Shown: piece after piece, positions 18,620 through 26,957 of the stretch
Layout: every line of letters starts with the position of its first letter
How positions within the stretch are numbered: the first letter of the stretch is position 1
Assembly (NCBI GenBank): GCA_029959195.1
Contig: CP114120.1
Location: 1,240,001 to 1,304,000, forward strand
Origin: Dictyophora rubrovolvata
Taxonomy: Eukaryota > Basidiomycota > Agaricomycetes > Phallales > Phallaceae
DNA length: 64,000 nt
Reading direction: 5' to 3'
Notes under the pieces: generated by a model
What the model was told of the DNA's origin: nothing
Seen by the model: the letters and a program-made list of their open reading frames with translations, nothing else
The model's database searches: none
Made by a program: the position numbers and the translations under genes

Positions 18620-21600
18620 ATGTCTCATCTAAATGGAGGACCGTTTCAGGACCCTCAGACTCCAACTCAGTTTTACGATAACACCAGCGTTAGCTCGCAT
18701 GACAACAACTTCGACCCTTACGGTGCGGAAATTCTTCCTTGCCTTCTTTACTTTTCACTCAAAAGATTTAATCGTTCACTCTAGGTCCTGGCAATTATCG
18801 AGGCTCAGATCTCGAGTCTGATAGCTTGCGATACACTCCTTCATCAGAAAACTTCATGGGTGCTGGTCCTCCACGAAGTGCTGTCCCCTTGCTTGACCCT
18901 CATGCGTCTGCACAGAGTTTTCCTTCCGAATTTGGAGGGAGCAACGCTCCTGGAAGGAGTCAAGAACCATACCCGGCATGGACAGCTGACCGACAGATAC
19001 CCCTTTCTAAAGAGTAAGTGTCTTTGATGTTCGCGTCCTACCCAAAGAGGTTTTGACAATATCTCCCTTTGTATAGAGAAATAGAGGATATTTTTCTTGA
19101 TCTAACTAACAAATTTGGTTTTCAACGGGACTCTATGAGAAACATGGTAAGACCCTTCTTTGTCATCGACAGGTCAATCGGCAACTGATTGAATACATCT
19201 AACGAATAGTTCGACTTCCTGATGCATCTTTTGGACAGCCGAGCTTCTCGAATGCCGCCTAATCAGGCATTATTAACACTTCACGCCGACTATATTGGAG
19301 GTCAACATGCCAACTATCGCAAGTGGTATTTCGCTGCCCAACTAGACCTTGACGATGCCGTCGGGAATTCCTTAAATCCTGGGCTTAGCAGAGTTGGCAC
19401 CCGGTCGAAATTGGCTCCCAGCAAAGCCAAATCTCTCGACAATGCTCTAAATCGCTGGCGTCAGGCCATGCATAATATGAGCCAGTATGATCGTCTCCGT
19501 CAAATTGCGCTGTTCCTTCTCTGCTGGGGAGAGGCGGCTTCTGTTCGATTCGTCCCCGAATGTCTGTGCTTCATTTTCAAATGCGCGGATGACTACTACC
19601 GTTCCCCGGAGTGTCAAAACAGGGTTGAGCCCGTTCCCGAAGGTTTATATTTACGTGCCGTCATCAAACCCCTCTATCGATTCCTGAGGGATCAGGGCTA
19701 TGAGGTTGTGGATGGCAAGTTTGTTCGTAGAGAAAAGGATCACGATCAGATAATCGGTTATGACGACGTTAATCAGCTTTTCTGGTATCCGGAAGGTATT
19801 TCCCGGATCACTCTCGATGACAAGACGCGTCTAGTAGATATCCCAGCCCCGAAACGGTTCATGAAACTTGAACGGGTTGATTGGAATCGTGCTTTCTTTA
19901 AAAACTACTTCGAGAAGCGTTCCGTTGGCCATCTCATGGTCAATTTTAACAGGGTCTGGGTCGTACACATCGCCTTTTTCTGGTTTTACACCGCCTATAA
20001 TGCTCCAGCAATCTATAGACGTAACGTAGGTAACCCTCCCACACCAACCGCGGCTCTTCCTGCGATGCGGTGGTCCGTGACTGCGTTAGGAGGTGGTGTA
20101 GCCACTCTTATCATGATTATGGCCTGCATTTTTGAATTCACCTATCTCCCGACTACATGGAACACTACTGCTCACCTTTCTCGTCGCCTTATCTTCCTTT
20201 TCATTGTCCTTGCATTAACTGTTGGTCCTACGTTCTATATCGCCACTATCAATGGCAGTCGATTGGAACATCCCCCCAATGAAAACATTGCCTTCATAAT
20301 CGGTCTTGTGCAGTTTTTCATATCCGTCTTTGCTACCCTACTCTTCGCGATTCTACCCAGCGGACGGCTCCTCGGTGATCGGGTCAGTGGAAAATCCAGG
20401 AAATATCTCGCTAGTCAGACATTCACCGCTGCCTATCCTGAATTGGACCGCAAAGCTCGAGCAACTTCCATATTCCTTTGGGTTTTAATTTTTGGATGCA
20501 AATTCAGCGAGTCTTATTTTTTCCTTACGGGTGCTTTCCGCGATCCTGTTAGTGTCATGGTCGGTATGACTGTTCAGCGCTGCAATGACCGATTCATCGG
20601 AAATGTTTTGTGTTCTCATCAAGCAGAATTCACATTAGCCATTATGTTCATAATGGACTTGGTTCTCTTCTTCTTGGATACCTTCCTGTGGTATGTCATT
20701 TGGAGTACCGTACTCAGTGTTGCTCGGTCGTTCGCTTTGGGACTTTCTATCTGGACACCATGGGTGGATATCTATTCCAGGCTGCCTAAGAGAATCTATG
20801 CAAAGTTGTTGGCTACAGGCGACATGCATGTCAAATATAAACCCAAGGTCAGTCATCTTCATATCGAAAGCTAATATTATTCACGAAACTTTCGCTTAAA
20901 ACAGGTCCTCGTGTCCCAGATATGGAATGCAATCATCATATCGATGTATCGAGAGCATCTTCTTTCTATCGACCATGTTCAACGGTTATTGTATCACCAA
21001 GTTGAATCAGAGACCGGCACAAGAATGCTTCGGGCTCCTCCTTTCTTCACGTCTCAAATTCAAAAAGGCGGCCCTAAGATTGAGTTCTTCCCCCGTGGTG
21101 GTGAAGCTGCTCGCCGTATCTCGTTTTTCGCTCAATCCCTTACGACAGCTATTCCGGAACCACTTCCGGTTGAAGCGATGCCCACATTTACTGTCTTGAC
21201 ACCTCATTATTCGGAAAAAATCCTGCTATCCCTTAGGGAAATCATCCGTGAAGAAGATAGGAACACGCGAGTTACACTTCTTGAATACCTGAAGCAACTA
21301 CACCCCGTTGAATGGGATAATTTTGTTAAGGATACCAAAATTTTGGCCGAAGAAACTAGGGAAGCAAACGGCTCTGGCGATGAAAAGACTTCAAAGATCG
21401 ATGATTTACCATTCTATACCGTCGGCTTTAAGAGTTCTTCGCCTGAATATACCCTTCGCACGCGTATTTGGGCTTCGCTTCGCGCGCAAACTTTATACCG
21501 AACAGTCTCTGGAATGATGAACTACGCAAAGGCCATCAAATTACTTTATCGTGTCGAAAACCCGGAAATCATGCAAAACTTCGGAGGAAATACTGATAAG

Positions 21601-24600
21601 CTTGAGCGTGAGCTAGAACGTATGGCGCGACGCAAATTCAAGTTTGTGGTCTCTATGCAGCGGTACTCCAAATTCAACAAAGAAGAACAAGATAACGCTG
21701 AATTCCTTTTGCGAGCATACCCTGATTTGCAAATCGCTTATCTTGACGAAGAACCCGCGCGAAAAGAAGGTGGCGAGCCTAGGATATTCTCAGCTCTTAT
21801 TGATGGACACTCAGAATTTATTCCTGAGACGGGTAAACGACGACCCAAGTTCAGAATTGAGTTGCCTGGCAATCCTATCTTGGGTGACGGAAAGTCTGAC
21901 AATCAAAACCATGCGATCGTTTTCTATCGAGGAGAGTATCTGCAATTGATTGATGCTAACCAAGATAATTATTTGGAAGAGTGCTTGAAAATTCGCAATG
22001 TCTTGGGAGAATTCGAAGAATACAACGTTTCCAACCAAAGCCCGTATGCTCAGTGGGGTCACAAGGAATTCAAGAAAGCGCCGGTAGCAATTCTCGGTGC
22101 TCGTGAATACATCTTCTCGGAAAACATCGGTGTCTTGGGTGATATTGCTGCCGGTAAAGAACAGACTTTCGGCACACTTTCCGCTCGTGCGCTTTCATAT
22201 ATCGGGGGGAAACTGCATTATGGTCATCCCGATTTTCTCAATGCAACTTTCATGAACACTCGTGGCGGTGTTTCCAAAGCGCAGAAAGGGCTTCACTTAA
22301 ACGAAGATATTTTCGCTGGTATGACTGCTTTTGGACGAGGTGGTCGTATAAAACATTCGGAATATTACCAGTGTGGGAAAGGTCGTGACCTCGGTTTTGG
22401 CACCATTCTTAACTTCCAAACAAAAATTGGTACTGGTATGGGAGAACAAATGCTGAGCCGTGAATATTGGTATCTGGGCACTCAACTTCCTGTTGATCGC
22501 TTCTTGACATTCTACTATGGGCATCCCGGTATGTAACATTGCTTTTTTATCTTGTTCAAACGCCTTCAACATCCACCCAGGTTTCCATATTAACAATGTA
22601 AGAAATGAAGGTTACCAATACCGTGTTCAAATGTATTCATCGCATATCTTTTACTTAGATCTTGGTTATTATATCGGTTCAAGTCTTCATGATGACTTGT
22701 GAGTCCCCGCATTGTTTTTGACATACTCCACAACTCAACTATTTGATAAAGTGGTCTTTTTGGGTACCCTTAATAAACAACTCGCCATTTGCCGTTACCC
22801 ATCCGCTGGTGCACCTGGCGTACCGCCAGGTTGCTACAACCTTAGTCCCGTATTCGACTGGATTAGACATTGTATCATTAGCATCTTCCTAGTGTTTTTC
22901 ATAGCGTTTTTGCCATTGTTCCTGCAAGGTTGTATTCTCGTATTTTTCAAAATGTCTCTTCTGACTGGTATCTTTGTTTTTTTAGAGTTGACGGAGCGTG
23001 GAACTGGTCGTGCGCTGATACGGTTGGGTAAACAATTCTTGTCACTCTCGCCTCTTTTTGAAGTGTTTTCCACCCAAATTTACTCTCACTCTATTCTGAG
23101 CAATTTAAGCTTTGGTGGTGCTCGCTATATCGCCACTGGACGCGGCTTCGCCACCACACGTATTTCTTTCAGCATTCTTTACTCGCGCTTCGCCGGAGCA
23201 AGCATTTATTTCGGTATGAGAACCCTTCTCATGCTTCTATTCATTAGCCTGTCCATCTGGTTGCCCTATCTCATATACTTTTGGGCCACTGTCTTGGCAT
23301 TGTGCATCGCGCCTTTCTTCTTCAACCCTCATCAATTCTCTTTTGCGGACTTCATCATCGATTACCGTGAATTCTTGAGATGGATGTCGCGTGGTAATTC
23401 CAGGACTCATTCAAATTCTTGGGTTGGATATTGTCGTTTATCCCGAACTAATATCACTGGATACAAGAAGAAGAAACTCGGTCACCCATCAGAGAAATTA
23501 TCGTCCGATGTTCCTCGTGCTGGGTGGAGAAGTATTATTTTCTCAGAGATTATCAACCCTGTTTGCACCGCAATTCTTTTGTAAGCGTTCCATTAGACTT
23601 TTGGTATGGGTGAAAGCTAATTTATCTGCAGTATCGTCGCTTACGCATTCCTCAAATCTTTCCCCGATCCTGATGGTAGTCAACCACCGAGTGCTTTTGT
23701 TCGTATAGGAATCATTGCGCTTGGGCCTGTCGTTTGGAATGCAGTAGTGTTACTGGTGTTCTTTTTCTTATCTTTGTTCATGGGACCTATGCTGGAAAGT
23801 TGCTGCGTCAAATTCGGATCGGTTATGGCGGCACTCGCACATGTGTTGTCTATGGTCGGCATGATCGCTTTCTTTGAATTCCTTGTAGGAGTATATTTTT
23901 GTTTACTGCTCGCTCAATTGTCTAACCCATATACTAGTGGTTCTTGGAGTCATGGGATGCTTCTCATGCGGTTCTTGGACTAATAGCCGTGATTGCTATC
24001 CAGCGCGCTCTTTACAAGATTTTGATTTCAGTCTTTTTGTCTCGGGAATTCAAGCATGACGAGACCAATCGCGCATGGTGGACCGGTAAATGGCACGGAC
24101 GAGGATTTGGATCGCACGTGATGTCTCAACCTGCACGAGAGTTCATTGTTAAAATTGTCGAGCTGGGCTTGTGGACATCTGATTTCTGTTTAGCGCACTT
24201 TTTACTGTTCATGCTAACACCCCCCCTGCTGATACCCTACTTTGATCGGCTGCATGCAACCAGTAAGTTATCTTTTAAAATAAGGACTAGGTCATCTGAC
24301 TAACTTATTCGCAGTGTTGTGTACGTCTCTGATGATCCCTTGTCCGTTTTTTACTGACCCAGCGAACTTGTAGTCTGGCTACGTCCTTCCAAGCAAATCC
24401 GTGCTCCCCTCTACTCTATGAAACAAACGCGGCAACGTCGGTGGATCGTTGTCAAGTATGGAATTTTATACGTGATCGTTGTTGCTATATTTGTTGCTTT
24501 AATCGCACTACGTAAGTCTCAGTATTTTAAGAAGTTTACTGTCATCTAAACTATCCACAGCCGCCTTGTTCCACCAGGACTTGCGCGTGCATTGTACTTT

Positions 24601-24616
24601 CTGCTCGAATATATAA
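18620..24616 (+). CDS. FKS1: 1,3-beta-glucan synthase catalytic subunit
   Basis: A protein of roughly 1,750 residues in many exons, starting [19 protein letters not shown] with a disordered N-terminus. An FKS1 domain 1 follows ([42 protein letters not shown]). Then come a first membrane cluster, the large cytosolic glucan synthase domain ([55 protein letters not shown]) and a second multi-helix cluster. The enzyme makes cell-wall 1,3-beta-glucan from UDP-glucose at the plasma membrane under Rho1 control. The C-terminal part needs two introns flanking a 6-nt exon at 24315-24320 to give [17 protein letters not shown]. The last exon ends CTFCSNI and TAA at 24614-24616. The region aligned with yeast hot-spot 1 reads FLTGAFRDP. 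Confidence 0.95.
24315..24320 (+). other. FKS1: 6-nt microexon in the glucan synthase gene
   Basis: TGTTGT is bounded by introns 24263-24314 (GTAAGT...GCAG) and 24321-24373 (GTACGT...GTAG). Joined in phase it gives A|TG-TTG-T|TC, that is M-L-F, and restores the conserved block MLFWLRPS. No other joining I tried yields this block. Confidence 0.82.
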
Positions 24617-25458: not shown

Positions 25459-26957
25459 ATGCCTGCTCTTGCGATGCCAGTCTTGAACCATTATGAACTG
25501 CCTTCGCCGACTGTTCATACATGTCAGTCTGTCAAATATGTCCAAAAAAATAACTTTCATAATGCAAATCTCTAGTGGAATGGGCCGATTTACAGCTTGT
25601 TGACATGTCTGAAGCTCAGACCGTCGAAGGTCGCCTCAAGTTAGCGCCAGCCATTAGAGATGCAATGGCCAAAACCGGGTTCTTCTATGTTGTCAACCAT
25701 GGCTATACTCCTGAGAAAGTAGGTTATCCTTTTGTTTTAAATTATATTTCATTGATTCTGTTCAGACCTCAAGAATTTTTGACATTGCCAACATTCCTTT
25801 TGATCAAGTTAGTCCTGGAGAGAAGCAGCTTTATGAAGGACAGCCCAAGAAAACTGGGTCATACCAAGGATACAAGCCTCGTGCTTATTGGGTGGGTCCT
25901 TTTTGCGAAAGTACATAATTAAAATTTTTTTTCATTACGCATAGCATGCCGACAACGGTGTCAGAGATCAAATCGAAACTACAACAGTATGTTCTTGCGT
26001 TCTGAATTCGTTTTTATAATATTTTACTCTTTATGGAAAGTTAACAGAGATACGACTAAGCGGAAACATCCTGAAGCTCTACGCCCGCTTTTGCCCGAAA
26101 TCTCCGAGTTTGCAAGATTTAATCATGTAAATGTTTTACATCTCATCCTAAAGTTGTTGATTATTTCTGCGCCATCACAAAATAAGCAGACTAATTCAAT
26201 TGTTCAGGTTACTTGCAATAGGATTAGAACTTCCTGAAGATACATTTGTCAAGCAGCATGGATTTGAAAGCAAAGGTGAAACATACGTGCGATTCATGAA
26301 ATAGTGAGTATATGATTTTAGTAGGCATTATTTCATTCTGAACTTGGTTAGTTATCGAAGATCAAACGATGACGAAGAGAAATCTAAATATATTTGGCTT
26401 AAAGGCCATACAGGTAGGGTTGAGCATAGAGCTTGGGCCATTCTTACGAATTCGATCAGATTTCGGGAGCATAACTATTTTATGGAGTCAGCCTGTTTCA
26501 GCATTGCAAATACTCTGTTCGGATGACAAATGGCGTTGGGTCAAGCATATTGAAAATGCTCTTGTATGCGAATAACACGCTGACCATTACTTACATACTA
26601 AAAGAAGCGTAGGTTATAAATGCAGGCGATTGTCTTGAGTTCCTGTCCGGTGGTTATTACAAGGCAACCATACACCGTGTTATCCGACCACCACCAGATC
26701 AGCGGTCTTATAACAGGCTGGGGGTCTTTTATTTCGCCATACCGGATGATGTCAAACTCAGTCCCTTGGACTCATCTGTATTACAACGTCTCGGAGCCAG
26801 CGACAGATTTAAGCAACAGAATGTCGATGCAATTACTGTCGAAGCCTGGCGGAAGGCCCGTACGGCTGCGTACGGGCAGAGCACGTTGGTAGCAGGAAAC
26901 GAAGACCGTGTGGAGGAAGAAACAATCAACGGAATTGTCGTCAAACATTACAAATAG
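25459..26957 (+). CDS. 2-oxoglutarate/Fe(II)-dependent dioxygenase, isopenicillin-N-synthase-like
   Basis: ATG at 25459 gives MPALAMPVLNHYELPSPTVH. An intron joins it in phase to EWADLQLVDMSEAQ, the first conserved strand. The DIOX_N region contains IRDAMAKTGFFYVVNHGYTPEK. The double-stranded beta-helix core carries the iron ligands H and D of GHTDFGSITILW (an intron falls between HT and DFG) and the distal H of ATIHRV. The oxoglutarate-binding Arg is in YNRLGVFYF, where the usual R-x-S serine is replaced by V. Family members hydroxylate or oxidise small molecules, often in secondary metabolism. There is no biosynthetic cluster around it, so the substrate cannot be inferred. The C-terminus ends HYK and TAG at 26955-26957. 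Confidence 0.87.

Follow-up and report, generated by a model that had tools for sequence, protein, structure and literature searches.

A predicted 6-nt spliceosomal microexon at the same codon of two FKS-type 1,3-beta-glucan synthase genes

The 6-nt segment TGTTGT, which lies between two short canonical introns near the 3′ end of a 1,3-beta-glucan synthase gene, is very probably a constitutively included spliceosomal microexon that owes its retention to codons lying in a conserved region of the enzyme; its inclusion is deduced from homology. The gene lies within a 64,000-nt stretch of DNA that was analysed as a whole (the window). What is new is that the same TGTTGT exon, with the same codon and phase, is present in both FKS genes of one genome.

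The TGTTGT segment and its protein context

The 1,3-beta-glucan synthase gene of the window was delineated with a homology-guided model and Pfam searches (Table 1). Three domains scored above cut-off, PF14288 (116.3 bits), PF23605 (209.3 bits) and PF02364 (1323.6 bits), which bears out the original assignment of the gene to the 1,3-beta-glucan synthases, and the presence of FKS1_dom1, FKS1_dom2 and Glucan_synthase in a single protein places it among the FKS-type enzymes. The 13 introns of the model are 49-63 nt long, with a median of 53 nt.

Positions 24263-24373 comprise 111 nt that read as two introns of 52 and 53 nt around TGTTGT, in agreement, in coordinates and lengths, with the original prediction; both have canonical GT/AG ends. 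Exon 11 ends in A, and the join A|TG TTG T|TC yields Met-Leu-Phe within a stretch of 20 residues. TGTTGT thus completes Met1691, encodes Leu1692 and supplies the first base of Phe1693. Retention of intron 1 alone introduces a stop on translation, as does retention of intron 2 alone. TGTTGT has the sequence properties of a spliceosomal microexon: it is very short, is flanked by GT/AG introns with branch-like motifs, and encodes conserved residues in frame.

Table 1. Positions of the two FKS genes and of selected exons and introns (window coordinates unless a locus is given)
Feature	Position	Strand	Length	Basis and remarks
1,3-beta-glucan synthase gene	18620..24616	+	14 exons, 13 introns, 1756 aa	homology-guided model and Pfam
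FKS exon 6	22581..22597	+	17 nt	second very short exon; gene model; flanking introns of 52 and 61 nt
Exon following exon 6	22659-22698	+	40 nt	common to the paralog by later spliced alignment
FKS exon 11	23938..24262	+	325 nt	gene model; equal length in the paralog
Upstream intron (intron 1)	24263..24314	+	52 nt	GTAAGT...TTCGCAG; branch-like CTGAC and CTAAC 15 and 11 nt before the 3′ end
Microexon TGTTGT, exon 12 of 14	24315..24320	+	6 nt	phase 1 on both sides; splice signals, frame and paralog
Downstream intron (intron 2)	24321..24373	+	53 nt	GTACGT...CTTGTAG; branch-like CTGAC 16 nt before the 3′ end
FKS exon 13	24374..24511	+	138 nt	starts with the remainder of the Phe codon
Second FKS gene of the genome, contig C6	L004:2377-8341			spliced alignment with the window protein
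Paralog microexon TGTTGT	L004:8032-8037		6 nt	codon and phases identical to the window exon

The translation that includes the exon matched six distinct PDB sequences at 123.2-135.7 bits, all of them named FKS1 or GSC2 (the latter a yeast name). Its best-scoring alignment (135.7 bits) runs without a gap along FKS1 residues 1692-1815, and the M-L-F of the window protein corresponds to residues 1770-1772 of yeast FKS1. MLFWL was identical in each of the five alignments listed of the six sequences matched. The original prediction that the exon restores a conserved C-terminal block is therefore upheld. With the exon skipped, scores against the same six sequences fell to 110.8-123.2 bits, the best being 12.5 bits lower, and a 2-residue gap appeared at the exon position in the one alignment listed.

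Residues 1663-1684 and 1714-1746 form the two hydrophobic stretches nearest the C-terminus of the window protein, and M-L-F (1691-1693) lies between them. By hydropathy, the M-L-F block, whose role is putative, would lie in or near a loop that precedes the last membrane helix. The available text of the review PMC12715860 gives 1876 residues for Fks1 of S. cerevisiae and places one Rho1 contact in the TM15-HH1 loop.

Candidate internal exons, defined by AG before, GT after and introns of at least 40 nt on each side, were enumerated in the 111-nt gap and in the corresponding gap of the paralog. This enumeration is independent of the spliced alignment of the paralog. Four internal exons were possible in the window gap, and TGTTGT was the only one to keep the frame. 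The paralog gap offered six, two of which keep the frame; the one other than TGTTGT (9 nt) introduces a stop. When each gap was subjected to 20,000 dinucleotide shuffles, a 6-nt exon that restores M-L-F turned up 14 times for the window gap and 31 times for the paralog gap. A single such exon is thus unlikely to arise by chance, and a coincidence of two at one codon is very unlikely.

The exon in the second FKS gene

A search of the genome (28.2 Mb, 11 contigs) with PF02364 returned at least three matches, of which the window gene accounts for two and a gene on contig C6 for one. The exon of this paralog was located by a spliced alignment that was not blind, since the window protein guiding it already contained M-L-F. 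The introns around the paralog TGTTGT measure 55 nt (GTAAGT...TTTTAG) and 57 nt (GTAAGT...CCACAG). In all four introns (two of the window gene, two of the paralog), one or more branch-point-like motifs lie 10-16 nt upstream of the 3′ end, branch points being scored as motif matches only.

The proteins of the two genes are identical in 1302 of 1760 columns of the spliced alignment (74%), with the poorly aligned N-terminus included. Across the 77 codons upstream of the exon, the two genes agree at 74%, 94% and 47% of codon positions 1, 2 and 3, respectively, and the same codon is used for 25 of the 62 identical residues; at this rate a TTG codon common to both copies is unremarkable. The inner part of intron 1 is no more similar between the genes than are shuffles, 76.8% of 500 of which reach its score, and for intron 2 the similarity is borderline, its score being reached by 6% of 500 shuffles. 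This leaves a small chance that the duplication is younger or that gene conversion acted on intron 2.

Both gene models rest on homology. Of the 13 introns in the window gene, nine, both microexon introns included, have a paralog counterpart in place and phase. The four without one follow residues 34, 680, 1221 and 1738, the first in the divergent N-terminus, and introns found only in the paralog follow window positions 339 and 1717. Two further, doubtful introns at the start of the paralog (91 and 56 nt) fall in the poorly scoring, divergent N-terminus; the comparison omits them, and the length list of the paralog covers 11 of its 13 introns.

Taken together, the identity of exon, codon and phase, the low similarity of the intron sequences and the 74% protein identity argue that the 6-nt exon and both of its flanking introns probably predate the FKS duplication. 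Most likely, both microexon introns outlived other intron changes in the two copies.

Relatives were also sought outside this genome. Among viral contigs, neither the FKS C-terminal region nor an 801-residue central FKS region found a relative (one unconfirmed pattern match each). Among genome contigs, the C-terminal query matched the pattern in 29 stretches, one of which was kept; this match, 14 residues long and from a bacterial metagenome bin (L005:5001-5042), was taken as chance.

Mechanism and alternative readings

Under intron definition, the mode proposed for the short introns of fungi, splice sites are paired across the intron. On this view, each of the 52-57-nt introns could be recognised as a separate unit, the size of the exon would be of little consequence and inclusion would occur by default. 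A near-consensus donor, a branch-like motif and a usual length would allow each intron to be removed independently, with 6 nt left over. The exon itself could have originated when two introns were inserted 6 nt apart before the FKS duplication, leaving the intervening piece as an exon that both copies would then have retained while other introns were gained or lost.

A microexon whose inclusion varies with growth state, giving full-length and 2-residue-shorter enzymes, was also considered. The exon length is a multiple of three and skipping keeps the frame, so a minor skipped form may exist, and a glucose-dependent microexon has been reported in Trichoderma Xlr2 (PMC11121469, available text). 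Against such variation, the residues at stake are identical in all five FKS1/GSC2 alignments listed of the six matched, the splice signals are near consensus, no regulatory element was noticed in passing and the flanking introns are little conserved between the paralogs. We consider regulated inclusion very improbable, and equally so the more specific proposal that both FKS genes keep the exon as a switch, in which skipping would take out two residues just ahead of the final hydrophobic segment and so change how active the enzyme is, or how it is regulated, in one growth state or another.

Alternatively, the 111 nt could form a single intron, TGTTGT being no exon at all and Ile replacing Met-Leu-Phe. 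In favour of this, both outer splice sites have canonical ends and joining them leaves an open frame. Such an intron would be an outlier, however, as it is longer than all 13 of the window model. It would also drop two residues that are found in the solved FKS1/GSC2 sequences, and the paralog would have to have undergone the same loss, each gene carrying a decoy TGTTGT framed by good splice sites. We regard this reading as slightly less probable still, and very unlikely.

Recursive-type splicing, in which intron 1 leaves first and the 6-nt piece is a mere step that is later removed with intron 2, would suit the arrangement of two short introns almost side by side. Here, however, 6 nt separate them in place of a zero-length AG|GT junction, and the conserved protein block requires the codons of this spacer. 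We regard this as the least probable of the alternatives.

Known fungal microexons and other features of the gene

Microexons have been defined as exons of 3-30 or up to 36 nt (PMC11121469, in the part available). The original prediction placed a 6-nt exon close to the smallest size that the spliceosome can recognise. The literature does not support this: fungal exons of 6 bp, of 2-3 nt and of 1 nt have been published (PMC1184071, PMC6540522 and PMC12940212, each from the available text). A close parallel is in the P450 genes of Phanerochaete chrysosporium, where the shortest exon is 6 bp (2 aa), introns are often 45-55 bp and a role in alternative splicing was suggested by the authors (PMC1184071). 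These exons resemble TGTTGT in coming from a basidiomycete, in being coding and 6 bp long and in having similar short introns, whereas they belong to P450 and not to glucan synthase genes. In Phlebia radiata, very short exons, down to two or three nucleotides, are described as typical of the gene models; these exons differ in being predictions, and the available text of that paper yielded no glucan synthase example (PMC6540522).

For the 1-nt exon of Fusarium CYP621A, the argument was that the intron would otherwise appear to exceed twice its usual length, and transcript reads were reported in support (PMC12940212). Like TGTTGT, it was found through a conserved motif, the reading frame and an over-long apparent intron; unlike TGTTGT, it is 1 nt long, lies in a P450 gene and has reported transcript support. 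The Trichoderma Xlr2 exon is likewise a fungal microexon, but its switch is reported to be regulated by glucose whereas the FKS exon is read as constitutive; according to the available text of the same paper, functional microexons in filamentous fungi had not previously been described (PMC11121469). No paper on a fungal glucan synthase microexon was present among the matches listed, as judged by title and start of abstract; in the available text of PMC3990503 and PMC4014442, "microexon" appears once each, as a read-mapping setting. That the TGTTGT exon is a further example of the kind of microexon known from other fungi is well supported.

The gene offers a test case for annotation, as the correct C-terminal part of a cell-wall enzyme hinges on a 6-nt exon. 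The original prediction had expected a missed exon to leave a truncated or misjoined C-terminus. The merged 111-nt intron is in frame and replaces M-L-F by I, so the likely error is a silent loss of two residues and not a visible truncation. The presence of the exon in both paralogs also allows a microexon to be dated by gene duplication, and makes the persistence of introns 6 nt apart a question that can be addressed.

The intron 5′ of the 17-nt exon 6 has no counterpart in the paralog, so that this exon was made by intron gain in the window gene or by intron loss in the paralog. The split into exons of 17 and 40 nt was set by the open frame of the paralog and by letters of yeast FKS1; a single exon in place of the pair was rejected, as its reading frame ran into stops.

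Intron 8 (22929-22985) has an unusual donor, GTTGTA, that by eye is weaker than the microexon donors; its position is common to the paralog, where the donor is GTAAAA. Downstream of the FKS gene, at approximately 25500-26480, lies a gene that by eye, from a motif, we presume to be 2-oxoglutarate/iron oxygenase-like.
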